Origin: Alistipes sp.
Lineage (GTDB): Bacteria; Bacteroidota; Bacteroidia; Bacteroidales; Rikenellaceae
Assembly: GCA_017463615.1 (NCBI GenBank)
Contig: JAFTOU010000018.1
Span: 62,001 to 126,000, forward strand
DNA: 64,000 bases
Reading direction: 5' to 3'
The notes beneath the pieces are model-generated. The model was not told where the DNA came from, did no database searches, and saw nothing but the letters and a program-made list of their open reading frames with translations. How positions within the stretch are numbered: position 1 is the stretch's first letter; each line of letters begins with the position of its first letter. A program made the translations under genes and the position numbers. Positions 7,993-47,296 of this stretch are shown here, piece after piece.

Positions 7993-7994
7993 AT

Positions 7995-8025
7995 GTTGAA
8001 ATCTAAAAAATATTCATTATATTTG
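7995..8025 (+). promoter_or_regulatory. Promoter of the intact vWA gene
   Basis: GTTG (7995-7998), 19 bases, then TATATTTG (8018-8025). The vWA gene at 8087 therefore has its own promoter and a ~55-nt AT-rich leader, independent of the tandem vWA gene. Confidence 0.7.
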
Positions 8026-8086
8026 TAGGAAATTAACTTAGGAGAGTAAATTAACGAAATATTAACAACTTAACACAACTTAAACT

Positions 8087-8791: not shown

Positions 8792-8812
8792 AATCAACTA
8801 TATGTATAGACA

Positions 8813-8847
8813 GAGGTGTATCCGCCTTGCGGTTACACCTCGTTTTT
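8813..8847 (+). terminator. Intrinsic terminator or attenuator after the vWA gene
   Basis: GAGGTGTA-t-CCGC (8813-8825), a CTT loop and GCGG-t-TACACCTC (8829-8841) form a long stem followed by GTTTTT. It lies between the vWA gene and the PP2C gene 14 bp later, so downstream genes depend on read-through or on a promoter inside it. Confidence 0.8.
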
Positions 8848-8860
8848 AATCTAACAGACT

Positions 8861-10291: not shown

Positions 10292-10310
10292 CAGCCAATA
10301 GGCAGTGGGG

Positions 10311-11294: not shown

Positions 11295-12274
11295 TGAATC
11301 TTTATATCAAGAAATCGCAGACCGATTGCTTTGAGGCTATCGTTGCAGATCAGCTGCTCTGCAAGTACCCAGAGTCTGACATGTACTCCCTCCAGGGGGC
11401 AGATTACAGCGACTACTGCGTCCACCTGATGCACAGTCCTGAGAATATCCTCACAGACAAGATATTCTATATGGCGGCACACCAGCCTAAGGGTGCCGAG
11501 AACAACCCAAACCTGCACATCTGCCTGCCTATGGCGGCTGTATACAATAGCGAGTGGAAGTGTGTCGGCTATATGACCCTCATGCCTTTTGAGGGCAGCC
11601 TTGGGCTGTCACTTCTGACAAGCTACAACGCACGCCCTATCTCCAAGCGTAAGCGCTTTGCCAGCAAGCCAGAGTGGCACGACAAGTTTGAGCGCGACGA
11701 AGTGGGTATGCAGAATCGCTACAAGCTACTCTACAATGTAGTCAAGGCTCTGCATCTTGTGCCAGAGTGCTACTCAATAGCAAACCTCACGCCTGAGGAG
11801 ATTCTCATCACCCCTAAGGGCAAGGTATCTATCATCGGACTCTACAACACTCAGATTGCCGAGAACGGCAAGGTGCTCTTCCCTATGCGCTCTATCACCC
11901 CTGACTACTTTGCACCAGAGGCGTATAAGGCCCGCAGTGCTAAAGAGGCTATCCCAGCCTCTGCGGGGCTATTCTCCGTTGCAGTCTACATCTATCAGGT
12001 GCTCACCGGCACGCACCCCTATGCAGGTACAGTCCTCAGACCGCCATACGATAGCGCCTCGGAGATTAGCGACTGCATCAAGAATGACCTGTTCCCATTC
12101 GGCGAGCGAAAGCAGTATATCACCCTGCCAGATGGTCTGAACCTACATAAGGCCTTTGAGAGTATGCCTGCAGATATACAGCAGCTCTTCAAGCAGGCAT
12201 TCAGTAGCAACTACACCTCCCGCCCAACACTTGAGCAGTGGGGTAAAACGATATATAACACTATTACACGATGA
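11294..12274 (+). CDS. Pseudokinase paralogue of the flanking kinases
   Basis: The ATG at 11294 overlaps the previous stop codon and gives 326 residues; an earlier in-frame GTG at 11261 would overlap the kinase by 34 bp. The protein aligns with its neighbours along the whole kinase fold (SKPEWHDKFERDE, DYFAPEAYK, LTGTHPYAGT, SRPTLEQWGK), but the catalytic residues are lost. There is no Gly-rich loop, the catalytic loop reads IANLTPEEIL without Asp-Lys-Asn, and the DTD/DFG site reads IIGLYNTQ. It is therefore probably a regulatory pseudokinase pairing with the active enzymes. It is tightly coupled on both sides. Confidence 0.8.
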   Translation: MNLYIKKSQTDCFEAIVADQLLCKYPESDMYSLQGADYSDYCVHLMHSPENILTDKIFYMAAHQPKGAENNPNLHICLPMAAVYNSEWKCVGYMTLMPFEGSLGLSLLTSYNARPISKRKRFASKPEWHDKFERDEVGMQNRYKLLYNVVKALHLVPECYSIANLTPEEILITPKGKVSIIGLYNTQIAENGKVLFPMRSITPDYFAPEAYKARSAKEAIPASAGLFSVAVYIYQVLTGTHPYAGTVLRPPYDSASEISDCIKNDLFPFGERKQYITLPDGLNLHKAFESMPADIQQLFKQAFSSNYTSRPTLEQWGKTIYNTITR

Positions 12275-14808
12275 AACTATACATCCAGAAGACAGCTAAC
12301 GGCAGCTTAGAGACTATTGATGTCAAGGACGACCCACTGGGCAAAGGTGGTCAAGGAGCTGTCTACAACATCATAACATCGCAGTATGCGGCAGAGTACT
12401 GTATCAAAATCTACTTGAGGGATGCTCAGAAGTCCTTTGAGAAGATTAAGTACATGGTCTCTCACCCGCCGCAGAATATCAAGGATAACCCATCCTTCCG
12501 CATCTGCTGGCCCGTGGCGTTGGTCTACGATACCAGCAAGAAGTTTGTCGGTTATATGATGCCGCTGGCATTTCAAAAGGGTCACGACCTTACTATCCTC
12601 TCCGTCTATCGTAACAAGCCGCTCTCGCAGATTAAGCGCTTCAAGAACAAGACCGAGTGGCACGACAAGTATGAGTTGGACACCAAGGAGGGTATTATCA
12701 ACCGTATCAAGATGCTCTGCAATGTAGCCATTGCGATACATAAGATTCACGATACGGGCAGATATGTACTTGTAGACCTCAAGCCTGAGAATATTGACGC
12801 AACAGGTACGGGTAAGGTCTCTATTATGGATACCGACTCTATCCAGATTTCGGAAAATGGTCGTATTCTCCACCCCGCTACAGCCTTTACCCCCGACTAC
12901 TTTGCACCTGAGGGTAAGGATTTGAAGAAGTGCAACCGCCCATTCCCTATTCAGTGCGATAACTTCGCTGCGGCTGTCTGCTTCTATCAGATTTTGACGG
13001 GTACCCACCCATACTCTGGAACGGTGCTCAAGCCACCTTACGACAAGTATACCGAGCTTGCCGACTGTATCGCTCAGGGACTTTTTGCCTTTGGCGAGAA
13101 GGCGCGATATATCAGCCTGCCTGCTGGTTTCAACCTCCAGCAGAACTTCTTTAACCTGCCTGTGGAGGTGCAGCAGATGTTCAAGCGTGCCTTTGGCACA
13201 AACCCTGCAATGCGTCCATCTATGGAGGAGTGGGGCAAGGTATTCTACACCATCATCAAGAAGGGCGTTAATGTCAATGCCTCTGCGGTCAAGCGCGTAT
13301 CTAACGACTCCCCTATCAAGATTATCAGCGTGGAGTATGGCGATACCGACAAAAATGGCAATGTGATTCGCAACTTCGGCAGTAAGCTCTACACAGATGT
13401 CTCATACCTCAATCCGAAGCTCAGCTACGAGGTGCTAAACCTTGCCGGTAGCATTGAGCTCAGATACCGAATTACAAACCCTAAGGGCGAGGTTATAACC
13501 TCCGACAAGACTATAGCCACCGTTTCTGCAAACTCAAAGGGCAAATGCACCCAGGCTATCGGCGGCTGGGGTAATCCTAATAAGACAGCCTACGATGTCC
13601 CAGGAACATACAACATAGAGTTCTACTTCAAGAATAAGTGTATCTTCAAGGACACCTTTACTATCTACGCATTAGGTAGTAGCCGCGCTGTCACCCCGCC
13701 AAAGAGCGTTCCGTCCTCTGCACCGTTCCAGATTACCAAGATGACATTCTTGGATGTGAAAAAGGATAATAGCGTCATTCGTGACGAAGGTAGCACCCTC
13801 TACACCGATGTAATGTATCTAAGACCGAAGATTTACTTCAATGTTAATCGTGTTGGTCCGAAGCGTACTGATGTATGGGTTAAGATTACTGACCCTAACG
13901 GAAAGGTTACCTCAAATAGCACCATCAAATCAGGTCTTTACAGTTCCGAGATAGACCTAAGTACTTCGGGTAGCTTCTCCTGCCTTCTCTCTGGTTGGGG
14001 AAATGATAGCTGCAATTTATATTCCATTCCAGGTAATTGGAAGGTTGAGATATACTACCAGAACTCCTGCATCTATAGCACCTATGTGACTATCAACCGT
14101 AAGAGCTCTACATCCTCGTCCTACACGCCTAAGCCAGCGCCTAAGCCAGCGCCAAAACCTGCTCCGAAGCCACACTACTCGCCTCGTTCTGGTGGTAGCA
14201 GCGAGGGTCTGTGGTCAAAATTGAACCGCATGGTGACAAGCATTGGCGATAAAATTGAGAACCTTATTGACGAACTGACGGAGGGTGATTTTGTTACAGT
14301 TGCAACCTTTGTTATAGGAGGTTTGTTGCTACTCTTCCTTGCAGCTATGACAAATAGTTGGTTCTGGGGTATCGTTGTATTTGTAATCGGATGTTGTATC
14401 GGCGTCTACGCCCTTACATTCATAGCGGGTATTTTAACCTTCGTTATATTGATACCTGCCTATGCTATACGATATGCGTTCTACAACATCTATACCCTGA
14501 TTGTTGCTCTTGCACTCCTCCTCGGCTCGTCAGCAATACCTTCTGTGGTCGAGCTTGTTAAGGATAGCGCGCAGGAGAAGACCAGCGTAACCACCTCCTC
14601 AAGGGAGACGACCACTTATGTCTGCACCTCAAAGGATGTGCTCAATGTTCGCAGCAAACCGAACACTGGTGCCAGTGTTGTGTCCACCCTCTCGCCAAAT
14701 CAGGCTGTTGAGGTATACTTTATCCGCGACGGCTGGGCAAAGGTTAAGCTGAAGAACAATACTACGGGCTATGCAAGTGCATTATTCTTAGAGAAATACA
14801 AACCATAA
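12271..14808 (+). CDS. Membrane Ser/Thr kinase with Ig-like repeats and SH3b domain
   Basis: An 845-residue multidomain protein whose ATGA overlaps the previous stop. Order: active kinase domain (GKGGQGAVY near 24-32, CIKIY, VDLKPEN near 168-174, MDTDSIQI near 186-193); two homologous beta-rich repeats (about 347-470 and 485-610, each with 'LYTDV.YL.PK' and 'GGWGN/SGWGN'); a Pro-Lys-Ala linker (APKPAPKPAPKP near 625-640); about four membrane spans (690-780); and a C-terminal bacterial SH3 domain (LNVRSKPNTG, WAKVKLKNNTTGYASALFL). The SH3b domain often binds peptidoglycan or peptides, so this kinase could sense the envelope. It is the probable membrane anchor of the vWA-PP2C-kinase set. Confidence 0.8.
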   Translation: MKLYIQKTANGSLETIDVKDDPLGKGGQGAVYNIITSQYAAEYCIKIYLRDAQKSFEKIKYMVSHPPQNIKDNPSFRICWPVALVYDTSKKFVGYMMPLAFQKGHDLTILSVYRNKPLSQIKRFKNKTEWHDKYELDTKEGIINRIKMLCNVAIAIHKIHDTGRYVLVDLKPENIDATGTGKVSIMDTDSIQISENGRILHPATAFTPDYFAPEGKDLKKCNRPFPIQCDNFAAAVCFYQILTGTHPYSGTVLKPPYDKYTELADCIAQGLFAFGEKARYISLPAGFNLQQNFFNLPVEVQQMFKRAFGTNPAMRPSMEEWGKVFYTIIKKGVNVNASAVKRVSNDSPIKIISVEYGDTDKNGNVIRNFGSKLYTDVSYLNPKLSYEVLNLAGSIELRYRITNPKGEVITSDKTIATVSANSKGKCTQAIGGWGNPNKTAYDVPGTYNIEFYFKNKCIFKDTFTIYALGSSRAVTPPKSVPSSAPFQITKMTFLDVKKDNSVIRDEGSTLYTDVMYLRPKIYFNVNRVGPKRTDVWVKITDPNGKVTSNSTIKSGLYSSEIDLSTSGSFSCLLSGWGNDSCNLYSIPGNWKVEIYYQNSCIYSTYVTINRKSSTSSSYTPKPAPKPAPKPAPKPHYSPRSGGSSEGLWSKLNRMVTSIGDKIENLIDELTEGDFVTVATFVIGGLLLLFLAAMTNSWFWGIVVFVIGCCIGVYALTFIAGILTFVILIPAYAIRYAFYNIYTLIVALALLLGSSAIPSVVELVKDSAQEKTSVTTSSRETTTYVCTSKDVLNVRSKPNTGASVVSTLSPNQAVEVYFIRDGWAKVKLKNNTTGYASALFLEKYKP

Positions 14809-33481: not shown

Positions 33482-33510
33482 AAAAAAGGGCGATGTCAAT
33501 GACATCACCC
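33482..33510 (-). terminator. Terminator of the TIR-RyR operon
   Basis: On the minus strand, GGGTGATGTCA-t-TGACATCGCCC is followed by TTTTTT (plus 33482-33487). It lies 8 bp after the stop of the RyR gene and marks the end of the seven-gene run that starts at 41261. Confidence 0.85.
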
Positions 33511-33517
33511 CACTCTG

Positions 33518-33808
33518 CTACTGCTTCTCTATCTTGAAGCCCAACTTACAAATCAGTTTGAGCGTCTGCAGAGCCGTATTGCGGTCATACTCGCGCTCGG
33601 AGTCTGGCAAAGACTCATACGGCACTAAACACGGATGGTGCTTCAGAACATCATTGCGCTGCTCGCCATAGCTCCAGCCCTGCTCTATTCGCCCCTGCGC
33701 CCACACATCGTGGACATTTCTCGCCATCTGCTCAACAAGCTCATTAAGCTCTGCCGACAACTCTATATCGCCCGTATCTACAGGCTGCGGTACATAAGTT
33801 TTACTCAT
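33518..33808 (-). CDS. Stand-alone RyR domain protein
   Basis: 96 residues, almost exactly one RyR domain: YVPQPVDTGDIEL near 5-17, NVHDVWAQGRIEQGWSYG near 31-48, HHPCLVPYESLPDSEREYDR near 57-76 and a closing LKLICKLGF. RyR repeats are known in ryanodine receptors and in prokaryotic proteins tied to predicted nucleotide-signalling systems, where they are thought to sense a small molecule. This gene is last of the operon, 12 bp after a second RyR-containing gene. Ligand unknown. Confidence 0.88.
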   Translation of the reverse strand: MSKTYVPQPVDTGDIELSAELNELVEQMARNVHDVWAQGRIEQGWSYGEQRNDVLKHHPCLVPYESLPDSEREYDRNTALQTLKLICKLGFKIEKQ

Positions 33809-33820
33809 AATTGCTATCTT

Positions 33821-35050
33821 TTATTTATCATCTTTTACTCTCTCAGCAATAGACTCTGCCGCCATAACTAAGAGGCAGTCGTACTTGAAACTTGACGGGT
33901 CTATACGCATCAAATCGTCGCAAGAGCACAAATCTATATGCGCCTTCTCCCCCTTCAATCGTGCACGCTCGCGCCTCAACGCTGCCGCATCTGCAAATAG
34001 TCTCTCATAGCGATAGCTCTCCTCGGCGGTATAGACGCGAAAACCGAGAGTCAGCTTCTCCACATTCCATCGCGCATGCTCAGACCTTGCAAGGCTCTCC
34101 AACATACCATAACTACTCCAACTGCTGTTCTTTATGCTACGCAATTTTGATGCTATACAATCTGCGCAGAAGAGATTAGATAGTTTTCCATTGATATCTG
34201 TACTCATCTTGTTCCATTTGCGGCATATAGCCAGTCGGGTTGCACGGGCGCATAATATATCCACCAAATTGCGATACTCCTCTACCTCAAACATATCCGA
34301 CACGCAGATGCTATTCAGGCAAGTACCCATTTCGTAGACCATACTCACCATCTGAGCCCTACGAATATCTATGCCGAAGTCTGCAACCTTCCCTTCCCTA
34401 ACACCCTCAGGCACAGCGTAGTACTGATATACCCCATTCTTAAGCGAAGTATTGGCATTTAACCCGCTATTATCAATAACGCTAACTTTCGCGTTGCTAT
34501 TATCCGGGGCAATATAATTATGCAGCTGCTTAATATCATCCACACCTACAAACTCAAACCGCACATCTATAAACGACACCGTCTTAGAGCCCTCAGCCCA
34601 CTCGGTAGCATTGCCATTCTGGTAATAATACTTACAACACCAGATAGCCTCCTTGAGCAGGTTGCCAGTTACACTCTCAAACTCCCGCTTCAGAGCCTTT
34701 ACATCATCAAGGTTTGCAGCCGAAGGGTGAACGATTGTAATAACCGTACGATATTTACCCACCGCGTCATTAAAGTTCGGATAGTGACACACGAGTGCAA
34801 TCTGACGCGCTATGTACAACGACAGCTCGTCACATCCAATAACCACCGCATGTACAGACTCTTCACTCGTGTAGCTAATACCCTCGCCATCAAGCGGTTT
34901 TATTTGGTTGAGCACGATATCGCGTGCAAAAAACTTACAGCGATTGCCCTCAAATAGGTCCTCTTTATCGGGCTTAATCCACCCGAGCATATAAAGTAGC
35001 TCTCTGAATACATTGAGTATCCATCTGAATATATTAAGCAACCATTTCAT
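33821..35050 (-). CDS. Membrane-anchored Rossmann (TrkA-N-like) plus RyR-like protein
   Basis: 409 residues. An N-terminal hydrophobic/amphipathic stretch (about 3-25) precedes a Rossmann-like strand-loop-helix, HAVVIGCDELSLYIARQ (near 67-83), as in TrkA-N ligand-gating domains. After a divergent middle, residues ~325-405 carry SLARSEHARWNVEKLTLGFR, the core of a RyR-like domain, although the HPxLvPY part is degenerate (DLCSCDDL). TrkA-N plus RyR fusions are predicted sensors for ion channels. It lies 3 bp after mscS, so it may gate that channel. The middle third has no clear assignment. Confidence 0.65.
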   Translation of the reverse strand: MKWLLNIFRWILNVFRELLYMLGWIKPDKEDLFEGNRCKFFARDIVLNQIKPLDGEGISYTSEESVHAVVIGCDELSLYIARQIALVCHYPNFNDAVGKYRTVITIVHPSAANLDDVKALKREFESVTGNLLKEAIWCCKYYYQNGNATEWAEGSKTVSFIDVRFEFVGVDDIKQLHNYIAPDNSNAKVSVIDNSGLNANTSLKNGVYQYYAVPEGVREGKVADFGIDIRRAQMVSMVYEMGTCLNSICVSDMFEVEEYRNLVDILCARATRLAICRKWNKMSTDINGKLSNLFCADCIASKLRSIKNSSWSSYGMLESLARSEHARWNVEKLTLGFRVYTAEESYRYERLFADAAALRRERARLKGEKAHIDLCSCDDLMRIDPSSFKYDCLLVMAAESIAERVKDDK

Positions 35051-35053
35051 ACT

Positions 35054-36154
35054 CTAATCTTTTTGATACAGTTTAAGGCCAAACCAACTCAGAGTCATCA
35101 GCATGTGCTCCATAACCGACGACTGCACCTCCTCGTAAGACATAATGCCGCTCTTGCGAATAAAGGTGTAGACCTGCAACGGCACGCCACCCTCGCTCGC
35201 CTGCTCCCTCAGGCGCACCATAAGGCACGGCTCGCGGGTAATATCCCTATTATTCATCAGCCAATGGTGCAAATATCTACGATAGAGGTGGATATTGAGC
35301 GTTGTATGTTGGTGCTCAGCGTACTCCTGGAAGATATATGTAGCATCCTGCCCTGCTGCTTTAAGCCTATCCTCCAAACACTTCAGCTCCTCAGCACTTA
35401 GCTCCTTGATAGAGGTGACATCTATTCTAAACGAGCGACGCATTCTGCGTCCCGTAGTCTTGCCGTCGCGCACCTTCTGATTATTCTGGAAAGAGCTCTC
35501 CTGAAGCTCAAGAATGGAGACATTAGACTCTGTGCCATCCCAATTTCTGACCGTAACAGTCATCAACGATATATCGGTAATCTCGCCATCAACATTGTGA
35601 TTCGGAACCTCTATATGGTCGCCAATACGGAGCAGATTATTCATCCTGAAGTGTATATACGCCACCGCTCCCCTGATAGCATTGCTAAAAACAAGTCCCA
35701 TCACCGCCGCCCCAAGGCTGACAGCAAGCGAATTTTCCTCAGTAATATTAAAACTAACTATCGCATAGACAAGCACCACCCCAAAACCGATGAGATATGC
35801 TATCTGCAACACATTATTCAAACTGTCTTTACGCCTATTATCACTCCTCAGCGTCTTCACAAATCGGCGGAACACCCACAATATATATAGGATATGCAAC
35901 AGCAATAACGCCAGTCCTAACCACGACTTTACCGTAATATTCTCAGTATATCGTAGCCACATATCAAACCCAAACACCGACAAAACAAACACCACCCAGT
36001 CCTTGCGCTTCAACGCCACACCAAACGCATGCCAGCCAGGCTTATTGATAGCCGAAATCATTATACCACGAAAGCACAGCGCCAGAAACCCCAAAAAAGC
36101 CACTCCCAGCGATAGCCACTCCCACCACACTATATTCTTCAAAAAATCACACAT
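35054..36154 (-). CDS. MscS-family mechanosensitive or ligand-gated channel
   Basis: 366 residues. There are about five hydrophobic segments, then the pore helix and beta domain: LGAAVMGLVFSNAIRGAVAYI near 148-168, IGDHIEVPNHNVDGEITDISLMTVTVRNWDGT (positions near 177-208) and the mixed alpha/beta cytoplasmic cap. This fits the YbdG/MscM branch. MscS proteins open on membrane tension or, in some systems, on ligand binding, and are recurrent effectors in nucleotide-signalling defence loci. It is flanked by PrsW 7 bp upstream and the TrkA-N/RyR gene 3 bp downstream. Confidence 0.88.
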   Translation of the reverse strand: MCDFLKNIVWWEWLSLGVAFLGFLALCFRGIMISAINKPGWHAFGVALKRKDWVVFVLSVFGFDMWLRYTENITVKSWLGLALLLLHILYILWVFRRFVKTLRSDNRRKDSLNNVLQIAYLIGFGVVLVYAIVSFNITEENSLAVSLGAAVMGLVFSNAIRGAVAYIHFRMNNLLRIGDHIEVPNHNVDGEITDISLMTVTVRNWDGTESNVSILELQESSFQNNQKVRDGKTTGRRMRRSFRIDVTSIKELSAEELKCLEDRLKAAGQDATYIFQEYAEHQHTTLNIHLYRRYLHHWLMNNRDITREPCLMVRLREQASEGGVPLQVYTFIRKSGIMSYEEVQSSVMEHMLMTLSWFGLKLYQKD

Positions 36155-36161
36155 AATTCAC

Positions 36162-36875
36162 TTAGATTTGTACAACATTATCGCGCTCAAGATGCTCAGC
36201 TATCTTCTTGCTTCCATACTTCCACATCTTGTAACAAAGCCACAAAAATAGTAGCGTCAACACCCCGCTCAGACCTGCCGCCACATCCGAAACAAACAGT
36301 ATGGTATCGTATGCGCCGTGAACCAGAACTGGAGCTAACACCACAAAGATACTATTTTTCTTTGATTCTGAAGGACAAAACTTCGCCAAAGAGTAATAAT
36401 AACCCATCAAAATACCAAAACAGAAGTGTCCTGGAATGGCAAACAGCGCACGAGAGATACCTATAGACATAAATGACTCAGCATCTGAGAATAGATATAA
36501 CAGATTCTCTATCGCCGCAAATCCCAACGAAACACACACGGCATATACGATTCCATCCATCTTCTCGTCAAAATATCTATTCTTGCGAAGGACTAACCAT
36601 AGTATAAACAACTTCGCCAACTCCTCCGGTATCGCCGCACCAAAGAATGATATCCTCACACAATCCTCTATCGTCTGCGCATCCTGCACAAACAACCCCA
36701 TCGCCTCCAGAGGCGAGGATATACACAAAGATAACGGTGCCGCCAACACACCCAACGCAAACGCCTTAAACAACTGTCCCACTGGCTCTGGCGCAATCCT
36801 ATCCTTGCGATATATATAAACCAACAATACCGCCACCGGAATAAGCGCTGTTAGGATAATTGCAATGTAATTCAT
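36162..36875 (-). CDS. PrsW-family intramembrane metalloprotease
   Basis: 237 residues with about seven to eight membrane spans. The family motifs are present: DRIAPEPVG near 24-32, PEELAKLF near 99-106 (EExxK), DGIVYAVCVSLGFAAIEN near 126-143, IPGHFCFG near 168-175 and HGAYD near 208-212. PrsW cleaves membrane anti-sigma factors such as RsiW; relatives of the CPBP/Abi superfamily also occur in immunity loci. Here it sits between a TIR gene and an MscS gene, suggesting proteolytic activation of a membrane partner. Confidence 0.88.
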   Translation of the reverse strand: MNYIAIILTALIPVAVLLVYIYRKDRIAPEPVGQLFKAFALGVLAAPLSLCISSPLEAMGLFVQDAQTIEDCVRISFFGAAIPEELAKLFILWLVLRKNRYFDEKMDGIVYAVCVSLGFAAIENLLYLFSDAESFMSIGISRALFAIPGHFCFGILMGYYYSLAKFCPSESKKNSIFVVLAPVLVHGAYDTILFVSDVAAGLSGVLTLLFLWLCYKMWKYGSKKIAEHLERDNVVQI

Positions 36876-36888
36876 AGTTTTGTTCTAT

Positions 36889-38028
36889 TTAGTTAATTTT
36901 CACCTCTACAATATCATTCCGCCCGCACGGCATAATAAGCGTATCACGCACAAGCTCTACAGATGATGATATACGATACCTTTGTTTCTGATTAGGGAGT
37001 GGGATATATAATCTCACATAACCATTTGCATCAGAAGTTGTCTCGTATGATTCAATCCTAAGACTAACATTCCCAACGCCTTTGCTTTTCTGATGGTCCC
37101 ACAATCTAAACATTACACGACCATATCGTGACGAATCTCTGCTAACATCTATCCTAACATTCCTCTTGAGTAATAAAGATGTATCTACATCGTTGTAGTT
37201 TGGGGCGTTAAATGTGATATTTACCCTCTTATTCAGTAATCGTTGTGGAACATTTTTGAACACCAGAGAATGACCAACACTCTTTATCGTATCTCTCTTC
37301 ACTTCATTATCTAATACCATTGTGACAACCGCATTTTCTAATGGTGGTAAACAGTCGTTACAATATGACACCTCCTTCAGACTCACATTTACACCCACTG
37401 GCAAACTTTTCAACCAAACACCTGCTATCACAGCAATAATTAATAACGCCATTGCACTCCAGCCAATAATCTTCTGAATAAGCAGTCTATGATGTCGTCG
37501 CCAAATTGTATCAAATTCAACTCCTAATAATTTTGAAATCAGTTGAACATAGGCTCGCTCGCGGTTCAACCACGACCATCGGTATATCTTCTCGTGAATA
37601 TTAGCTCCCAACACCTCCGACAAACCAAGTGTTTTTATTATCGGATTAAAACACGCCGTAGCGTCATATCCACTATTAGGCACGCCGTCCACAATAAAGA
37701 AGTGTATATAATCAGCACGCCCAAGTCGGTAAAAAAATTCAATTTCTCGCCCCACCCACTCTGACTGCGCAGAATTTGGAGAGCATATAACTATTAAATT
37801 CCGAGAAGCCTGTAAACGTTCCTGTAGTTCCTTGGATAACACACCTGGTTGAATGTCTGTAGGAGCAAAGAATACAGGTTTTATGGGCGTACGGCTCCAA
37901 CCTCGCTCATTGCATAAAGTCGCAGGCATCCTATAATGCTCCAACTTACGCTGTAATCGTTGCCCCCACTCAAGGTCTTTTGAGCTATAACTTATAAAGG
38001 CAAAATATTTATATTTGTCTATCATCAC
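36889..38028 (-). CDS. TIR-domain membrane protein with C-terminal beta domains
   Basis: 379 residues. TIR domain at ~1-170: FAFISYSSKDLEWGQRLQRK near 9-28, PVFFAPTDIQ near 50-59 and SAQSEWVGREIEFFYR near 84-99, which includes the Glu expected in NAD-cleaving TIRs. One membrane helix follows (near 187-208). The C-terminal ~165 residues are two carboxypeptidase-regulatory/Cna-B-like beta domains (SLRIESYETTSDANGYV). TIR in the cytoplasm and beta domains outside suggest a transmembrane sensor. A decayed homologue of the C-terminal part remains at 41367-41820. The gene is 4 bp after the TPR gene. Confidence 0.82.
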   Translation of the reverse strand: MMIDKYKYFAFISYSSKDLEWGQRLQRKLEHYRMPATLCNERGWSRTPIKPVFFAPTDIQPGVLSKELQERLQASRNLIVICSPNSAQSEWVGREIEFFYRLGRADYIHFFIVDGVPNSGYDATACFNPIIKTLGLSEVLGANIHEKIYRWSWLNRERAYVQLISKLLGVEFDTIWRRHHRLLIQKIIGWSAMALLIIAVIAGVWLKSLPVGVNVSLKEVSYCNDCLPPLENAVVTMVLDNEVKRDTIKSVGHSLVFKNVPQRLLNKRVNITFNAPNYNDVDTSLLLKRNVRIDVSRDSSRYGRVMFRLWDHQKSKGVGNVSLRIESYETTSDANGYVRLYIPLPNQKQRYRISSSVELVRDTLIMPCGRNDIVEVKIN

Positions 38029-38032
38029 CTTG

Positions 38033-39973
38033 CTACTTAGACTGAATTTTGGATATCTTCCACTTTATAACCTCGGTATTCGGGTGTTCCTTCCCAAGAT
38101 TCTTTTCAAATCCCTCCAATGTCTTAGTATAATAGGTTAATGCTTCGCTATAATTCCCCTCAATCTCATAAGCGTGTGCTATACCAAAATACGAAAGCGC
38201 AGTCTTTATATGATCCTTCCCAAATGTTTGTTCTGTAATTACAGATGATTTTTTAAGATAGGTTAAAGCTTCCGAAAAATTCTTTTTTTGACTATATGTA
38301 GTGCCTAAATTCCCATATATAGTTCCAAGTCTCGGATGCTCTTCCCCAAAACAATATTCCAGAATATTTACAGCCCGCTCTGTATAAGTTAATGACTGAT
38401 CCAAATCCCCCTTCTCAAAGTACAAATGACCAATGTTAGCATATACAGTCGCTACGTTAGGATGGTCCTTGCCTAAAATCTTCTCTCTAATATCTACCGA
38501 CTTGAGATAATATTCCAACGCCTGAGTATCATTGCGCAGGCTCTGATAAATCGCGCCTAAATTATTGTAGCATGTTGCGGCACCCAACTCTGCATCCGAT
38601 GCAAGACTCTTTTCTCTAATAGCCAATGCTTTTGAGATATACTCTATTGCCTTATCATAATCCTTCAACTGCGCATATACCTCACCCACATTATTATATG
38701 AGACAGCTGTAATATTATGCTCTTCCCCAAATACCTGTTCTCTAATTACTAAAGACTTTTTATAGTATTCCAATGATTTTGGATAATTATGAAGTGTGCG
38801 ATAAATTGCACCTATATTGTTGTAGGTTGCACTTATCTCTTCTTGTCGTTCCGTCTTGAATATTCTCTCTTTAATCTCTAAAGCTTTTGTTAAATATTCT
38901 AAAGCCTGAGTATGATCAAGTATCTCATGGTAAACGCAACCTATATCATTATAAACCTCAGCCAACAATTCCTCAGGACAATCGTCTTGCGCTTCAACAA
39001 TCTGCAGACATGAGTTATATATAGACAATGCACCTTTGTAATCAGCAACATATCCTGTCATATATTTTGCTGCTTCCAATTGCCACTTAATATTTGTAGT
39101 GTCCAACTGCGCACGGTACTTAATATAGTAGACCGCAGAGTCACGCAAATACTGCTGCTTGAATATCTCAAACTTCCTGTAACTATCAGTAGCTAAGTCT
39201 TCCAACTTACGAATGGCTAAACGCTCACTCTTTTCCAATCGTTTTTGTCGTGCTGAAAGTTTTTCTCGCTCCAATTTATTTGCCTCCTGCAACTCTCGCA
39301 ACTCCTGCTCACGACTACGAAAGCTACCTTTAGTCTGCATCAGGGAGTCTGCTTCTGACAAACGACCATCAACAATGCAATGACTGATACGCAGATTAAG
39401 TTCATCAATCGCATCAAAATCCATTTTTGAATATCGTTCTGCCATCTCAGCAATAAGATTCTCATCCTTTGACTGGTCTGAATAGAGTTTTTGCAACTTC
39501 TGACGGAACTCTTCTACTGTAATCCGATTCTCCTCTCTAAGTCTATTGATTTCAGCTCTACGGGCTTGAAGTTGCTGGGATAGGTTATTTCTAATCTTAT
39601 CTACAATAGCAAGGCTATCCTCCCAAATATGATCAGGAGTATCCAGAACAATTGTATGCGGATTAGAAGATCGTCTATATTTAGTCCATAGGACATCCTT
39701 ATCCACAAGCTCATAACCCTTTTTTTTAACATCTGAAATGGAGTATTCATCTTTCGTTAGCGCAAGCACGAAATTGCCCTTTGTGTCACTAAGCACCGTG
39801 TTTCCATCCTTAACTGCGATACTCGTATCAGGCAATCGCTTACCTGGAATTAAGTGACCAGATTCACTCATACGGCCACGGGTCTTCACATAGCCAGACT
39901 GAAAGTCTTGTGCAAATGCTGCACCTACACTTAAAGATAAAAATAATAGTATATAACAACTAAATCGTTTCAT
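38033..39973 (-). CDS. Exported TPR-repeat protein with coiled coil
   Basis: 646 residues. A signal peptide (MKRFSCYILLFLSLSVGAAFAQ) is followed by a small beta domain (about 25-115), a long coiled coil (REEQ/K-rich, about 125-260) and about eight kinesin-light-chain-type TPR units (ATYNNIGAIYRTLHNYPKS-like, each ~42 residues) from ~320 to 640. It probably acts as a periplasmic protein-binding scaffold. It lies between the two TIR genes, so it may present a cue to the extracytoplasmic parts of those proteins. AT content is clearly higher than in backbone genes. Confidence 0.82.
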   Translation of the reverse strand: MKRFSCYILLFLSLSVGAAFAQDFQSGYVKTRGRMSESGHLIPGKRLPDTSIAVKDGNTVLSDTKGNFVLALTKDEYSISDVKKKGYELVDKDVLWTKYRRSSNPHTIVLDTPDHIWEDSLAIVDKIRNNLSQQLQARRAEINRLREENRITVEEFRQKLQKLYSDQSKDENLIAEMAERYSKMDFDAIDELNLRISHCIVDGRLSEADSLMQTKGSFRSREQELRELQEANKLEREKLSARQKRLEKSERLAIRKLEDLATDSYRKFEIFKQQYLRDSAVYYIKYRAQLDTTNIKWQLEAAKYMTGYVADYKGALSIYNSCLQIVEAQDDCPEELLAEVYNDIGCVYHEILDHTQALEYLTKALEIKERIFKTERQEEISATYNNIGAIYRTLHNYPKSLEYYKKSLVIREQVFGEEHNITAVSYNNVGEVYAQLKDYDKAIEYISKALAIREKSLASDAELGAATCYNNLGAIYQSLRNDTQALEYYLKSVDIREKILGKDHPNVATVYANIGHLYFEKGDLDQSLTYTERAVNILEYCFGEEHPRLGTIYGNLGTTYSQKKNFSEALTYLKKSSVITEQTFGKDHIKTALSYFGIAHAYEIEGNYSEALTYYTKTLEGFEKNLGKEHPNTEVIKWKISKIQSK

Positions 39974-40016
39974 AATTCCAATTTATCAACCTTCTATTTA
40001 GAGACATTCAATAATA

Positions 40017-41261
40017 TTAGTTCGCCGCTTCCATTGAGTTGATACGCTGCTCAATCATCTGAATCTGCCGTGACAAATCGTTCAAGACTAGATCATTTTT
40101 CTCCAGTAAAGCTTTTTTCCCATATAGAAACTCTAACTGAGACTTCATCTCCTGCTTATAAAAGTGTTGATATTGCTCTTTCTTCAAGCCAATTGCGACC
40201 CCTTTAGGGAAATTCTGCCAATCACTTGCAACCTCATAATATGAATCTATTGCTTTTCGTGGAAAATCAGAGATGAATTCCATGTAAGTATAGTATGTTG
40301 AATTCAAGTCTCCTTTAACAATCTCTTTGTTAATATCACGCTGAAAGTTGATTGTTACCGATAAATCTGTAGATGTAATAGCTTTCTGCATTGCCTTTAT
40401 CTCGGTGCGCAACGCGTCAATTGTTTGCCTTGCCACGGTTGCAAACAATTCACAGTCAGTAGGATTCACACCGTAGCAACTAACTAAAAATGCCTGATAA
40501 TCAGTCAAGACTTCATCTTTAACCATATATCCTTTCAGCTCTACCAAACTATTATCTATTACACCTAGCTCCTCAAGAGTAAGTGTCAGTAGCTCTACAA
40601 GTTCATCTCCTGTTTTTAGCTGAGGTATTTCATTACGCATATTGTCCCAGCATTTGTATATCCATTTTGTATACTCTCCACCCTCATCTAAAAGACACAT
40701 ATTAAGAGTTGCGTTATCTACGACTCGTTTGCAAACTGGTATCGCTAATATACGAAAAATAAAAGTACCCAATAATAATATGGTTGCAATTGATAACAAA
40801 GTTATTCCCACGCGAGCAAATAACCTACGCCAATCTCTATGAGGCTTACTAATTAAGTATGATGCTAATCGCTGCATTGACAAATCAAAGAATTCTCTTT
40901 CTCCCGCAGCAACAGCCTGGTATAAACAGAGGTCCTCAATCCCCTTTGGCATTGGACTTGGCCACTTAAACCCACTTAGAAGAACAGGTATGATATTCTT
41001 CTTACACTTCATCGCTTGCATAATTTCCTTACGCACCCAATCTTCTTCATTCTCACATCTATCTAATGCATCTGGAGGCAACACCACAACAAAGTCCGAA
41101 CAGTGGTCAATAACATCGTATAACTGTTCATTAAACTTTCCCGAACGAAGAGTCTCTACATCAAAAAAGACATTATACCCCATCAGTCGCAATTTATTTG
41201 CAATGAGATTTGCCGATTCAAACGAACTGCGTCTATAACTTATAAAAATATCGTATTGCAT
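40017..41261 (-). CDS. TIR-domain protein with membrane helix
   Basis: 414 residues. TIR at ~1-150: YDIFISYRRSSFESANLIAN near 3-22, FFDVETLRSGKF near 31-42, DFVVVLPPDALDRC near 57-70 and EEDWVRKEIMQAM near 73-85, with the Glu typical of NADase-type TIRs. One membrane span follows (near 152-175). The C-terminal ~230 residues are helical and unassigned, ending in a coiled coil. First gene of the seven-gene run, 43 bp ahead of the TPR gene. TIR domains either make NAD-derived signals or deplete NAD; the data cannot say which applies. Confidence 0.82.
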   Translation of the reverse strand: MQYDIFISYRRSSFESANLIANKLRLMGYNVFFDVETLRSGKFNEQLYDVIDHCSDFVVVLPPDALDRCENEEDWVRKEIMQAMKCKKNIIPVLLSGFKWPSPMPKGIEDLCLYQAVAAGEREFFDLSMQRLASYLISKPHRDWRRLFARVGITLLSIATILLLGTFIFRILAIPVCKRVVDNATLNMCLLDEGGEYTKWIYKCWDNMRNEIPQLKTGDELVELLTLTLEELGVIDNSLVELKGYMVKDEVLTDYQAFLVSCYGVNPTDCELFATVARQTIDALRTEIKAMQKAITSTDLSVTINFQRDINKEIVKGDLNSTYYTYMEFISDFPRKAIDSYYEVASDWQNFPKGVAIGLKKEQYQHFYKQEMKSQLEFLYGKKALLEKNDLVLNDLSRQIQMIEQRINSMEAAN

Positions 41262-41366
41262 AATCTGACTAACTTTTATAAAACTATCTATGTAATATGT
41301 ATATCAATTGATTACTAGGGCGCTCATCTTCTCCAATATAGTCTTTATACCCCGTCTTGCTTAATC

Positions 41367-41820
41367 TTATCTTTTTGCAACCGTTTGTTCCAATACCGGT
41401 ATCTCAAAACAAAAGCGCCCCTGTGCATCACTCTTAGACTCCATTTCATCCAGGCGAATTATTACATCCTCTAATGGCTCCCCATCTTCATTGTATACAA
41501 CACCCGAGAATGTTGCGAATGAGGAGTCTCTACTCAGTGATAGTTGTACATCATTCTGCACACCCACGCCTATTCTAACCGGTTTTAATGTAGTTATAGT
41601 ACTGAGCTGCAAACATTATTGGCACATTATAAGCCCTTAAATATCCAGGCAATCTCTTTATTAACAAAATAGTGTCCACATATTCAACTTTGTAATCTTC
41701 CTCCCTTACATGTATCGTAAAAGACTCTTCTATATTATACCAAATCCACAAACCACACTCCCTGATTGGGTTATTCCTCAAGCAAATATATAAAAAAAAT
41801 ATCAAATAATAGACATAATT
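41367..41820 (-). pseudogene. Decayed C-terminal part of a TIR/beta-domain paralogue
   Basis: Two minus-strand frames, broken near 41575-41590, together match the C-terminal half of the TIR protein at 36889. The upstream frame reads FTIHVREEDYKVEYVDTILL ... PIMFAAQYYN, comparable to RVNITFNAPNYNDVDTSLLL. The downstream frame reads QLSLSRDSSFATFSGVVYN ... SDAQGRFCFEIP, comparable to RIDVSRDSSRYG ... TSDANGYVRLYIP. No TIR domain or start codon remains. It lies just upstream of the TIR operon, so it looks like a remnant of a duplicated operon member. The rest of 41262-42039 shows no gene. Confidence 0.6.
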
Positions 41821-42039
41821 GACAATAAGTTTGTCCTTCTGGCGCATTTGCAGATAACTATTCGGATATGCAATGTTGTTCAATTGAAAAACATTTTCTA
41901 ACTTTGTTAGGCCTTGTGCCCTCGGTGATGCCGGGTGGAACATTCTTACGAAAGTGGACTATTCTCAACTCCGCACTTTCGCTTTCTATTTTAAGGACTC
42001 GCCATATAGGAGTTGAATGGCAAAAACTACTGACTTACT

Positions 42040-43813: not shown

Positions 43814-44798
43814 ATGAGCCTATTAGACGAAGAAAATGTATTAGAGGCAAATGTTGAACACGCTGTAAAAAAAGGCTGTTTATCCTCCTGGATACCTCAA
43901 AAGAGGTTGGGATAAGTTTGAAGATGTAGTCATTGAAGATCTTGAGCAATTGGGCTGCACGGGATTAAAGAGCATTACTATCCCAAGTGGGGTTAGGAGA
44001 ATTAGAAATAAAGCATTCAAACACTGTGAGAAATTAACAAATATCACTATCCCAAACGGTGTAAAGTCAATTGGAGATGAGGCGTTCTATGACTGCACTA
44101 GTTTAACAAGCGTAGTCATTCCCGAAGGCGTAACAAAGATTGGAAGAGATGCTTTTTATGGCTGTTTGAGCCTGAAAAGTATTACAATCCCAGAGAGTGT
44201 AAAAGAGATTGGAACTCATGCCTTTTTTAGTTGCTCTTTGAGGTCTGTTACTATCCCAGATGGCGTAACTGTAATTGCAAACAATACTTTTCTGCATTGT
44301 GGGAGATTGATGAGTGTTACGATTCCTAATAGTGTAACATCTATTGGGGGTAGTGCATTCAAATATTGTACAGAATTAACAGACATTACTATCCCAAAGG
44401 GAGTAAGGGAGATTGGTGTGGGAGCTTTTGACCATTGTGAGAATTTAACAAGTATTACTATCCCGGGCAGTGTAACCAAGATTTCCGCTTATGCTTTTTC
44501 GGATTGCAAGTCTTTGAAAAAAGTAGTAATTGAGGAGGGGGTGAAAGAGATAGAGGAGTGTGCATTTGGTGGTTGTGAGAGCTTGGAGGAGGTAGTGCTT
44601 CCTGCGGGAGTTGCGGAGATTGATCGTGACTTGCATATCACATACGAATGGGGAGGCATCCCATTTTCACGAGAAATCTTCCACGAATGTCCCAATATCA
44701 AGGCTATTTATGTTCCAGCCCAGCAGACAGACTACTATAAACAACGGCTGGATAGTTCACTCCATAGCCTGATTGTAGAACTAAAACCCGAGAAATAA
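43814..44798 (+). pseudogene. BspA-like leucine-rich repeat protein, frameshifted in an A7 run
   Basis: Reading from the ATG at 43814, the frame breaks at a run of seven A (about 43870-43876) in GTAAAAAAAGG. With six A the frame stays open to 44798, giving ~327 residues. The N-terminal ~50 residues (MSLLDEENV, EHAVKKAVYPPGYLKRGWDKF) match the start of the next gene. From ~55 on there are about ten BspA/TpLRR repeats of 23 residues with the pattern 'L.SITIP.GV..IG..AF..C'. Such repeats bind proteins. It is either a pseudogene, a phase-variable gene, or a sequencing error in a homopolymer; the downstream part alone could start at 43950. Confidence 0.7.
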
Positions 44799-44800
44799 TA

Positions 44801-45367
44801 ATGAGCATATTAGACCCCGAAGAAGAGTTTGTGTAGCGTGCCGACCACGCTGTAAAGGTCGCTGTATTTACGCCCGAATACGACAAGAAGAGTTGGGATG
44901 AGTTCCAAGCCGAAGCGATTGAGCCGATTGTAAAGAAGTTGGCAGCGGGCAAGCGAGTTGGCAAGTTCGCTGTTGGAGTATATGTGCCTACCGAGCCACC
45001 GTTCCATTGTAGCGTGGCGGATAGTATCAATTCAGTGTGTCAGGCTAATAGGCTTCGTTGTTTCTATATCAATGGTCGAAATATTCGCACTATAACCGAT
45101 GCGCTGGCTGTATTGACCGAGATATCACGCTATCCATATTCGATGGTTGTAGTGGAGGATTTCGATATGATACCCGAAACGCCCGCAAAGTCCTATATCG
45201 AGCGAGCTATCATCGGCACTTGGGAGCGAGAAACGATACTGCCCCGTAGTTGTTATGGGGTTGTTTTTACCACCTCGCAGGGCGATGGTGAGGAGTTGCC
45301 CACGCTACTCAAAAAGATTAAACGCCTCGCTTGGTGGGGCAATATCCGCAGGTATAAGGTGGAATAA
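44801..45367 (+). pseudogene. Sister gene of the LRR protein with internal stop; Walker-B-like core
   Basis: The ATG at 44801 starts MSILDPEEEFV and meets TAG at 44834-44836; the frame then stays open to 45367. Ignoring the stop gives 188 residues. The start and the stretch HAVKVAVFTPEYDKKSWDEF match the LRR gene's head. The rest has MVVVEDFDMIPETPAKSYIE (near 125), like a Walker B strand, and GVVFTTSQGD, like a sensor strand, but no Walker A loop. It may be a fragment of an AAA+ domain. An internal start (for example TTG at 44939) could still yield a short product. Confidence 0.55.
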
Positions 45368-45412
45368 GTCGACTTGGAAATAATTGTTTATTAATAAGTT
45401 GCGAAGTGGCGT

Positions 45413-45466
45413 AAAAAAATAGTTGCGATTTCTACTAAATTTTCGCCCCCGATTTCTTATATATAC
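45413..45466 (+). promoter_or_regulatory. Island promoter-like motif, copy 2
   Basis: AAAAAAATAGTTGCGATTTC, ACTAAA (45434-45439), ~18 bp, TATATA (45458-45463). The first 18 bases are identical to copy 1. It lies ~50 bp upstream of the WG-repeat gene. Confidence 0.5.
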
Positions 45467-45514
45467 ACAGAAGTGCTTCCCAAAACAAAAACCAAAGCAA
45501 ACAAAATTTGAAAT

Positions 45515-47296
45515 ATGAGAAATAATCGTTTTAGCAAATTAACAGGTAACGGAGTAGAACTTTATGTAGATGCTATTGAAGTGCGAATCCAAGGCGGTGG
45601 CTTCGATTATATGTATGGTTTCGTGAATGAGAAAGATGAGATTGTAATTCCATACAAGTATCAATTCGTAGAGGCTGTATTGGGCGATCTGGCAATTGTA
45701 GCAGAGGACGAAAAGGAAAAAGGATGGAAGATTATTAATGCCAAAGGTGAAATCGTTTACGAATACGATGAGCTCAATTGGTTTGATGATGAACTCAAAG
45801 CAGCAGTATGCCTTAATGGCAAGTGGGGAGTTATCAACGAGCGTTGCGAGGTTGTCTGCCCAATCAAATATGAAGATGTCTGTTGGTTTGACGAGAAGAT
45901 ATTTATTGTTCGGCAGGGCGGTAAATGGGGTGCTGTAAACTATCAAGATGAAGTCGTCTACGAATTTCAGTATGATGATTTTGAGGGTAGCGTTGGCTGG
46001 TTGGGGGCAGATCTTATAAAGGGGCGCATACGCCACAAACCTATATTCAGAGTACGCCTCGGTGATAAGTGGGGCTTTATCAATACCAACTTTACTCCAG
46101 TTTGCGAGTTTAAGTATGACAATGCTGATGAATTGAATGATGATGGTTATGCCAAGGTTAAAATCGGAGATAAAGTCGGAATCGTTGATGAGACCGGCAA
46201 CGAGATTCTCCCTCCAAAATACAAATCAAGCACCTACTCTATATCCCGTAATAGCCTCGAATTACAAGATGGTAAACTTTTCGGGTGGTTTGATTCCAAA
46301 AGCAAATATCTCTGCAAGCCAAAGTACGATGAGATTTCCGAGTGGAATTCTATTTTCATTGTAAAACTTAATGGTAAGTATGGTATTGTTCGTGCCGATG
46401 GTACAGAACTTTGCCCATTGCAATACGATGAACTTGTAAAGTGGTGGTGCTATGGACGCAACGAGGCGGTATACAAGGTGCAAATTGGAGAGAAATGGGG
46501 CGTTATAGATGTCAATACGGGAGAATATATTTTTGAGCCGATATACGATGAGATAAGCGACAATGACGAGTGTTGCACGCAAACTCTCCGCATTGGTGAT
46601 AAGTGGGGTTATATATATCTTGGCGAGTCAAAAAACATCGTGAGTGATATCATCTACGATGAAATCAAGTGCAACGGTCAAGTAGTAGCATATCGCCTCG
46701 GTGATAAATGGGGTGTACACTTTATTTTGGACTCTGACTCTTGGGACCCGGAGGGAGGTTGTGCAATTGAAGATGATGTTAAAGTTATAGACCTATTCGA
46801 GTGTAAATATGATGCTTGTGAGAGTGGTCGTTGGGGTAGAGTTTATTATCTTTCGTTATCATTAAATGGCAAATGTGGTTATTTTAGTGTCTCTCGAAAA
46901 GATTGCTCTATCAAGATGATATGTGAACACAAGTACGATGAGATATGTTTTGATATTGATGGTATGGCTGCTATTCGCATTGGCGAGAAGTGGGGCTACA
47001 TAGACAGAGAGGGCAATACGATTTGTGAAATTAAGTATGACGATGTTCGACACTCCGCACAACCTCTCTGTTATGACTATGGGAGAGAAGATTTTGAGTA
47101 TCCTCATTTGATAGCGGTGTGTATCGGAAACAAGTGGGGTTTTATCAATACGCAGGGTGAAGAGTTTTGCGAGTTCAAGTTTGATAGAGTTGAGCGATGG
47201 ACTTCCGAGTATGACGGCGATTGGTATGTGGCTTATATAGGCGAACAGAAGTATGAACTATCCGAAGATGGATTGAAATTTGAGCCTCGAGATTAA
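45515..47296 (+). CDS. WG-repeat protein (large)
   Basis: 593 residues built of about 14 WG repeats of ~35-45 residues. Each has the core 'GDKWGxIn' (GKWGVINERCE, GDKWGFINTNF, GEKWGYIDREGN, GNKWGFINTQGE) followed by 'CEFKYD..'. No signal peptide or membrane segment is seen. WG-repeat proteins form beta-propeller-like folds and occur in bacterial conflict and signalling loci, but no biochemical role is settled. It is driven by a motif shared with neighbouring island genes, and a short relative lies 200 bp downstream. Confidence 0.85.
   Translation: MRNNRFSKLTGNGVELYVDAIEVRIQGGGFDYMYGFVNEKDEIVIPYKYQFVEAVLGDLAIVAEDEKEKGWKIINAKGEIVYEYDELNWFDDELKAAVCLNGKWGVINERCEVVCPIKYEDVCWFDEKIFIVRQGGKWGAVNYQDEVVYEFQYDDFEGSVGWLGADLIKGRIRHKPIFRVRLGDKWGFINTNFTPVCEFKYDNADELNDDGYAKVKIGDKVGIVDETGNEILPPKYKSSTYSISRNSLELQDGKLFGWFDSKSKYLCKPKYDEISEWNSIFIVKLNGKYGIVRADGTELCPLQYDELVKWWCYGRNEAVYKVQIGEKWGVIDVNTGEYIFEPIYDEISDNDECCTQTLRIGDKWGYIYLGESKNIVSDIIYDEIKCNGQVVAYRLGDKWGVHFILDSDSWDPEGGCAIEDDVKVIDLFECKYDACESGRWGRVYYLSLSLNGKCGYFSVSRKDCSIKMICEHKYDEICFDIDGMAAIRIGEKWGYIDREGNTICEIKYDDVRHSAQPLCYDYGREDFEYPHLIAVCIGNKWGFINTQGEEFCEFKFDRVERWTSEYDGDWYVAYIGEQKYELSEDGLKFEPRD

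Follow-up and report, generated by a model that had tools for sequence, protein, structure and literature searches.

A stretch of 64,000 nucleotides of Alistipes sp. (assembly GCA_017463615.1, 2.38 Mb in 67 contigs; contig JAFTOU010000018.1, positions 62,001 to 126,000 of the forward strand), here called the window, carries seven open reading frames (ORFs) on its minus strand (33518..41261). They encode, in order, a TIR protein (TIR1), a TPR protein, a second TIR protein (TIR2), a PrsW-family protease, an MscS-type channel, a putative Rossmann-RyR protein (gene 6) and a small RyR protein (gene 7). We read these genes, with about even confidence, as a membrane-based, Thoeris-like nucleotide-signalling operon: TIR receptors would produce a messenger of the cyclic ADP-ribose (cADPR) type, RyR domains would sense it, and a channel and a protease would act as effectors. 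The parts of this operon are a recurring kit in Bacteroidales.

According to this model the outside domains of the single-pass TIR receptors, probably together with a periplasmic TPR protein, would detect something happening at the envelope, for example attack by a phage. The activated TIR domains would convert NAD+ to a messenger of the ADP-ribose (ADPR) type, either cADPR or 2'/3'cADPR. Binding of this messenger by the RyR domain of gene 6 would gate the adjacent MscS channel, and relatives in which transmembrane (TM) segments, RCK, Rossmann and RyR domains are fused would perform both steps in one chain. PrsW would be another effector and would cleave a membrane protein. The small RyR protein could be a co-sensor, or a hydrolase or sponge similar to the phage protein RyDEP by which the threshold is set or the signal terminated. 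As a result ions would leak and the attacked cell would stop growing or die, and we infer an immune purpose of the operon.

The ORF coordinates and the gaps between successive genes (43, 4, 13, 7, 3 and 12 bp) agreed exactly with the original prediction, made by a model from the letters of this DNA, and the single terminator predicted behind gene 7 was confirmed. The RNA of this terminator (minus strand, 41 bases) folds with -18.5 kcal/mol (z -4.5), and 0 of 200 shuffled sequences were equally stable; the terminator scan found 9 sites with 4.8 expected. A scan for sigma-70-type promoters yielded 16 sites compared with 21.7 expected from shuffles, which is nothing above chance, and therefore no promoter is claimed. 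The seven genes are presumably co-transcribed. Pfam matched each of the domains named beforehand for genes 1 to 5 and 7 (TIR, TPR, TIR, PrsW, MscS and RyR). The features are listed in Table 1.

Table 1. Features of the operon and of its upstream border (positions in the window; residues are numbered within each protein)
Feature	Position	Strand	Characteristics
Gene 1, TIR1	40017..41261	-	SARM1-like TIR (Glu79), TM near residue 151, C-terminus of ~240 aa predicted extracytoplasmic
Gene 2, TPR protein	38033..39973	-	signal peptide (by eye), TPR_12 2.2e-70
Gene 3, TIR2	36889..38028	-	GTG start, ThsB-like TIR (Glu95), TM near residue 187, C-terminus predicted extracytoplasmic
Gene 4, PrsW-family intramembrane protease	36162..36875	-	PF13367 3.6e-38
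Gene 5, MscS-type channel, rare subfamily	35054..36154	-	MS_channel_2nd/PF00924 1.2e-7
Gene 6, putative Rossmann(RCK2-like)-RyR protein	33821..35050	-	alignments with relatives; His325, Trp328, His371, Asp391
Gene 7, small stand-alone RyR	33518..33808	-	PF02026 4.7e-37; His33, Trp36, His58, Asp75
Intrinsic terminator	33487..33511	-	stem of 11 pairs, then T's
Decayed remnant of a TIR2-type C-terminal domain, upstream of TIR1	41367..41612	-	CarboxypepD_reg 8.4e-4, below the curated cut-off

TIR1 matched Pfam TIR_2 (6.1e-14), and its TIR domain aligned over residues 4-132 with the TIR domain of human SARM1 (1.4e-25), a similarity that the original prediction had overlooked. In the alignment Glu79 of TIR1 (stretch DWVRKEI) corresponds to the Glu of DWVHKEI in SARM1, a residue that we take to be the catalytic Glu of the active site. 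Neither an ARM nor a SAM domain was found in TIR1 in the Pfam scan, and its score with the Thoeris type III model was 30.3 at a model cut-off of 220. TIR2 matched TIR_2 (1.6e-10) and ThsB_TIR (5.6e-7), the PADLOC ThsB models over short stretches, and TLR2 weakly (0.011); it is 53-59% identical to the copies in loci L029, L038 and L085 (L and G numbers are our labels for loci and genomes). Glu79 of TIR1 and Glu95 of TIR2 share one alignment column, which is Glu in 52 of the 55 TIRs of RyR-containing runs, the window included. The similarity to SARM1 and ThsB together with this Glu suggests that the TIR proteins could make an ADPR-type messenger. As described in a study on these enzymes (PMC11025887), the human and fly SARM1 TIRs yield ADPR or cADPR plus minor or trace amounts of gcADPR.

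Both TIR proteins contain a single TM segment directly after the TIR domain, in agreement with the membrane anchoring that had been proposed for them. Since more Lys and Arg residues are found on the TIR side of this segment than on the far side (5 vs 2 in TIR1, 4 vs 2 in TIR2), the positive-inside rule places the TIR domains in the cytosol and the C-termini probably outside. A TM segment after the TIR domain is present in 31 of the 55 TIRs of RyR runs, window included, and 25 of these 31 carry more positive charge on the TIR side. Extracytoplasmic beta domains had been claimed for TIR2; the C-terminus is indeed predicted to lie outside, but Pfam matched no domain there. The TPR protein encoded between the two TIR genes shows the signal-peptide-like start expected from its supposed secretion and is predicted to be a periplasmic adaptor or sensor. 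Homologues of it adjoin TIR2 in L029, L038 and L085. In L038, L029 and L028, which belong to other families, the TPR gene is doubled beside RyR/TIR2 and the copies have diverged, which might reflect recognition diversity.

Gene 7 scored 126.6 bits with PF02026 (gathering score 27.4). It matched solved RyR proteins such as 3nrt (3.3e-36), presumably a B. thetaiotaomicron protein, and animal RyR2 with 1.7e-62 summed over four repeats. The residues of interest are known from phage RyDEP, which according to a 2026 preprint hydrolyses 2'/3'cADPR via H75 and D117 and contacts the ligand with W78 and H100 (PMC13232231). Six of eight RyDEP homologues tested there bind 2'/3'cADPR and none hydrolyses it, so that the four residues do not predict activity. 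H75, W78, H100 and D117 of RyDEP align to H33, W36, H58 and D75 of gene 7, and the counterparts in gene 6 are H325, W328, H371 and D391. Of 52 small RyR proteins (up to 160 aa, without that of the window) 46 have the set intact, and so do 45 of 47 Rossmann-RyR proteins, gene 6 among the 47; the latter alignment contains 46 of the 48 relatives found, with L087 and L137 left out. Judged by these residues, the RyR domains of the operon may bind the messenger. Degradation or sequestration of the messenger by the small RyR protein is a possibility that the original prediction had missed. The small RyR protein shares 66.7% and 58.7% identity with two records of a phage collection, H1 and H2, both of them unannotated faecal scaffolds. 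A search of viral contigs with gene 6 gave no match.

Direct searches of Pfam, NCBIfam and the PDB with gene 6 revealed nothing significant (a CASTOR row had E 0.8), and no PF02026 match over the gathering score was obtained. The assignment as Rossmann-RyR protein comes from the alignment with relatives and from the aligned residues; a profile of the Rossmann-RyR part alone matched only RyR, and this weakly (3nrt, 0.0075). The relatives are mostly longer. The full-length long forms, of which we found 41, measure 609-911 aa and in most cases begin with a region of two to four hydrophobic segments, followed by Rossmann domains and then RyR. A profile built from 29 of these 41 sequences (12 were left out) matched over TM plus RCK the structure 4gx0 ('TrkA domain protein', 9.4e-10), which we take to be GsuK, and BK (2.9e-8). 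Over RCK alone it matched DMI1 (6.8e-8) and CASTOR (1e-6), and at its C-terminus RyR (1.5e-9). Among the 29 members themselves (E up to 0.05) 21 matched a Slo-like RCK domain (best 8e-9), 11 matched RyR and 7 TrkA_N. Because of these TM-RCK and RyR matches the long relatives can be regarded as channel-like proteins carrying a RyR domain. They combine pore TM segments and RCK in one chain as RCK-gated channels do; gene 6 does not, as it shows no TM segment by hydropathy, lacks the pore and the first RCK domain and begins after the latter. Inspection by eye of the region between the TM segments of the long relatives revealed no apparent K+ selectivity-filter signature. The label 'TrkA-N' given earlier to gene 6 is partly justified: the Rossmann part of gene 6 corresponds to the second such domain in the long relatives, whereas their Pfam RCK match sits in the first. 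As far as gene order tells, a separate, rare MscS channel replaces the fused channel in the window, as it does in two other families.

In L085 (3437-5166), and likewise in L088, L091, L097, L106, L107 and L112, the fused channel-RyR gene is followed by a conserved sigma-like protein of ~190 aa and then by a RyR protein of ~330-380 aa, which was C39-peptidase-like in the one scanned. The ~190 aa neighbour is at most a putative sigma factor: one protein matched Sigma70_r2 with 0.039 and two others gave no match at 0.01. An M48 peptidase gene is also present in loci of relatives, and one TIR1 homologue showed weak PDZ matches.

The protease gene reached 131.5 bits with PF13367 (cut-off 23.5) and 147.6 bits (3.8e-43) with the NCBIfam PrsW model, under the equivalog cut-off of 225. 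The channel gene reached 32.2 bits with PF00924 (cut-off 20.2) and has the beta domain after the TM helices. Both proteins are polytopic, with five hydrophobic segments in PrsW and four in MscS. In the relative L117 (17823-18875) a protein of 350 aa fuses PrsW with RyR; both Pfam domains were above cut-off, all four RyDEP-type residues are retained, and the gene lies beside a TIR1 homologue. In another relative RyR is fused to a C39-peptidase-like domain (31.2 bits vs 24 and 116.5 vs 27.4), and there the second His is Thr. Next to Rossmann-RyR and RyR the MscS gene was found in the window, in G003 and in G201, i.e. in three families. The MscS profile was built from the copies of these three loci, so their scores of 739, 729 and 576.5 bits are given by construction. 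A fourth member of the subfamily was not found in 393 genomes of the order, where the next match had 195 bits, and the subfamily was accordingly not seen apart from Rossmann-RyR. Since RyR is fused to a channel, to PrsW and to a C39-peptidase-like domain and MscS adjoins Rossmann-RyR, the domain seems to be a sensor module that can be exchanged between membrane effectors. The same fusions and neighbourhood suggest that MscS would be opened and PrsW engaged by RyR sensing.

For the distribution we searched 295 genomes of the order with gene 6, and 150 genomes of the family, 393 of the order and 296 of the phylum with PF02026. Gene 6 matched in 15 of the 295 genomes, its own included. PF02026 matched in 20 family genomes, 37 order genomes and 22 phylum genomes (21 over the cut-off). 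Outside the order the matches reached at most 50 bits (window 126) and belonged mostly to longer ORFs. Of the RyR relatives in named genomes, the nearest 11 came from metagenome-assembled genomes with the titles Rikenellaceae, Alistipes, Bacteroidales, Bacteroidaceae, Prevotellaceae and Tannerella, which makes a gut-dwelling member of the Bacteroidales very likely as host of the operon. In genomes of genus g273 of family f136, in another part of the phylum, proteins of ~900 aa with two adjacent RyR matches recur.

Analysis of the 20 PF02026-positive family genomes demonstrated that 27 of 70 TIRs (PF13676) lie within 10 kb of a RyR gene, 23-fold more than the 1.17 expected by position. These TIRs are spread over 10 of the 20 genomes, and 25 of them remain without the two of the window. 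A count in which 44 of 92 TIRs from 30 genomes fell within 10 kb of RyR (1.41 expected) was not used, since 10 of these genomes had been picked after the layouts were seen. Altogether 56 genomes were RyR-positive (union of family and order), and in 25 of the 54 whose main loci were examined a TIR gene lies in the same-strand run with RyR. The 85 same-strand runs with RyR, Rossmann or RyR-like domains contained TIR in 31, PrsW in 13, the TPR type in 7 and MscS in 3 cases; L085 and L086 are one island counted twice among them. L073 (duplicate of L085/L086) and L028 (duplicate of L139) had been dropped before the counts, as had one duplicate among the named contigs. PrsW was present in the run in 6 of 20 family genomes and in 5 of 35 examined order genomes, with the own genome in both. 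Using phmmer at 1e-5, CHAT-like genes were detected in 3 and nSTAND-like genes in 6 of the 85 runs, and Pfam agreed for one of each. In L096 (10114-12543) and L089 (6732-9521) nSTAND1 NTPase and CHAT-TPR proteins are located inside RyR/TIR/PrsW runs, neighbours that point to biological conflict.

G201 has the order MscS-Rossmann-RyR-RyR-TPR-TPR-TIR2, and G003 is the same up to the TPR genes, where the contig ends. G120 shows long Rossmann-RyR-RyR-TIR2-TPR-TPR. In the congener G441 the island reads TIR2-TPR-PrsW-RyR-containing protein of 744 aa-TIR1-TIR-RyR, preceded within this run by a fused channel-RyR gene (the loci L085 and L086 overlap); it comprises six of the seven families, with MscS replaced by the fused channel. 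The original prediction was to fall if the genes did not occur together elsewhere. They do, with six families in G441 and MscS-Rossmann-RyR-RyR-TPR in G003 and G201. Co-occurrence in Bacteroidales thus held for the parts; the exact seven-gene set was present in no other of the 81 loci examined.

Several observations weigh against the proposed signalling operon. In 29 of the 54 genomes the RyR loci have no TIR in the run (contig ends truncate some of these loci), and of the 10 named genome contigs just three, L074, L077 and L081, have one, so that RyR channels may answer other signals. The family genomes are related, and counts of genomes are not independent. Among the RyR domains in longer proteins only 7 of 21 keep all four residues, and 9 of 21 have Thr for the second His. 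The four residues are general to PF02026, animal RyRs included, and therefore can neither separate binding from hydrolysis nor prove cADPR as ligand. The MscS pairing consists of three loci, two of which were found via gene 6, and is thus partly circular. The PADLOC matches of the window were confined to parts of TIR type (SAVED-TIR, Aga, ThsB and others) and a TPR model; among ten proteins from relatives, one had TIR-part matches and another matched Csn2 weakly (0.0021). Finally, the GC content at third codon positions (GC3) is 0.35-0.37 in TIR1, TPR and TIR2, below the 5th percentile of the 40 other genes of the window (0.403), and 0.49-0.62 in the other four operon genes; because of the lower GC3 of the three receptor-side genes the operon may be a recent patchwork. 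The chain from TIR product via RyR to channel or protease, as originally proposed, is supported in part: co-localisation, the fusions to channel and PrsW and the conserved cADPR-contact residues speak for it.

The same chain could serve envelope or osmotic stress instead of immunity, with the TPR protein and the outside domains of the TIRs sensing damage, MscS relieving turgor and PrsW starting a proteolytic response. PrsW, MscS, a periplasmic TPR protein and extracytoplasmic TIR domains are all envelope-directed, and the sigma-like gene, the M48 peptidase and the weak PDZ matches of relatives would suit such a role. The sigma link is weak, however, and absent from the window, and the CHAT and nSTAND neighbours, the several divergent TIRs per island and the accessory distribution resemble conflict systems; we consider a stress operon unlikely.

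A somewhat smaller chance is given to the view that the TIRs are plain NADases killing by NAD+ depletion, with RyR proteins that sponge or hydrolyse ADPR isomers for self-protection and with channel and protease as separate functions. The catalytic His/Asp pair is kept in the small RyR protein, and RyDEP offers a precedent for both hydrolysis and sequestration (PMC13232231). Fusion of RyR to channel-like proteins and to a protease is, in contrast, what is expected of effector sensors, and MscS adjoins Rossmann-RyR in three families.

It appears improbable that the RyR ligand is unrelated to the TIRs, for example NAD+, ADP-ribose or ATP, and that TIR genes merely share defence islands with RyR genes. 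The many RyR loci without TIR in the run would fit, as would the relationship of the fused channels to 4gx0 and similar RCK channels, in which the RCK domains respond to other ligands. The 23-fold enrichment of TIRs near RyR and the tight TIR-RyR operons argue against this explanation. A chance joining of an upstream operon of receptor genes with an unrelated downstream one of channel genes would explain the GC3 step between TIR2 and PrsW and the uniqueness of the exact set, but it is very improbable given the other order of the same families in G201, the MscS-to-TPR part in G003 and the occurrence of TIR2, TPR, PrsW, TIR1 and RyR together in G441.

A search of 180 genomes of the genus with gene 6 yielded matches in five others at 1e-10 or better, all of them long ORFs of 718-835 aa; a second short form was not among them. 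The permease flanking the operon was found in 42 of 61 genus genomes. We compared eight permease regions, including four of the five closest (88-95% identity; G562 was left out). In the four close regions the order permease-FabI-111 aa protein-LigA is conserved and the upstream genes differ (in G550 the contig extends only about 2.9 kb there); in the four other regions the downstream block did not show. The operon genes were present in none of the eight regions. By these comparisons the operon is accessory, and with its uneven GC3 it looks mosaic. Just upstream of TIR1 (41262-41943, minus strand) lies a frameshifted, decayed remnant, which we read in three frames. It ends with a C-terminal domain of the TIR2 type and looks like what is left of a lost receptor gene. 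This domain was also matched by the TIR2 C-terminal profile; tblastn searches with TIR2, TIR1 and TPR at full length gave no convincing match in the remnant. Beside the operon, 43950-47296 (plus strand) encodes leucine-rich repeat (BspA-type) and WG-repeat-like proteins (by eye). At 6661-14808 (plus strand) what look like VWA-type proteins are followed by several protein-kinase-like genes (by eye), a cluster that to us resembles Ter-like phosphorylation triads.

The literature search, covering top-ranked and mostly open-access results, gave no account of this gene set, as the original prediction had supposed. Burroughs et al. reportedly predicted in 2015 that RyR domains act as sensors in prokaryotic RyR/TrkA/TIR nucleotide-signalling loci. 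Among known systems Thoeris, with its ThsB TIR and ThsA-type effectors, is similar in that the TIRs stand beside a candidate receptor or effector for ADPR-type messengers and TIR2 matches ThsB_TIR. It differs in that the TIRs of the operon are apparently membrane-anchored and ThsA is missing, with RyR as candidate sensor and MscS and PrsW as candidate effectors. No ThsA, SIR2, SLOG or Macro match was obtained with the seven operon proteins in Pfam, PADLOC and NCBIfam. By the ThsA test the operon is not a Thoeris, yet it would be Thoeris-like in its working if the chain holds. SARM1 shares with TIR1 the TIR domain and the aligned active-site Glu, whereas TIR1 is a predicted single-pass protein with an extracytoplasmic domain and gave no ARM or SAM match. 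If the assignment is right, this would be TIR signalling with receptor-like, outward-facing TIRs.

The channels BK/Slo, GsuK and CASTOR/DMI1 resemble the long relatives of gene 6 in their TM and RCK parts (4gx0 and BK) or in RCK alone (DMI1 and CASTOR). The long relatives, unlike these channels, end in RyR, and gene 6 dispenses with the pore and the first RCK domain and adjoins MscS. Phage RyDEP (PMC13232231) has the same domain as the operon RyRs with all four ligand residues at matching positions; the operon RyRs are bacterial and belong to a TIR operon, and some relatives are fused to a channel or a protease. Such operons provide a setting in the cell for the phage RyR proteins by which TIR messengers are bound or degraded.

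Animal ryanodine receptors contain the same RyR repeat domain, and an ion channel is the proposed output in both cases. The bacterial proteins are, by contrast, small and modular, and no match to an animal RyR pore was found for MscS or for the TM-RCK part. A direct action of cADPR on ryanodine receptors has long been a matter of dispute. Studies of it are called for in the RyDEP preprint (PMC13232231). The operon combines a SARM1-like TIR, RyR domains with the cADPR-contact residues of RyDEP and a channel; as these stand side by side, the question becomes testable in small bacterial proteins. As a tentative further proposal, the operon could be a bacterial counterpart of the disputed animal cADPR-RyR axis, in which cyclic ADP-ribose from Toll-like, single-pass TIR receptors would bind RyR directly and open the channel, with RyR as an interchangeable module on BK/CASTOR-like channels, MscS and PrsW across Bacteroidales.

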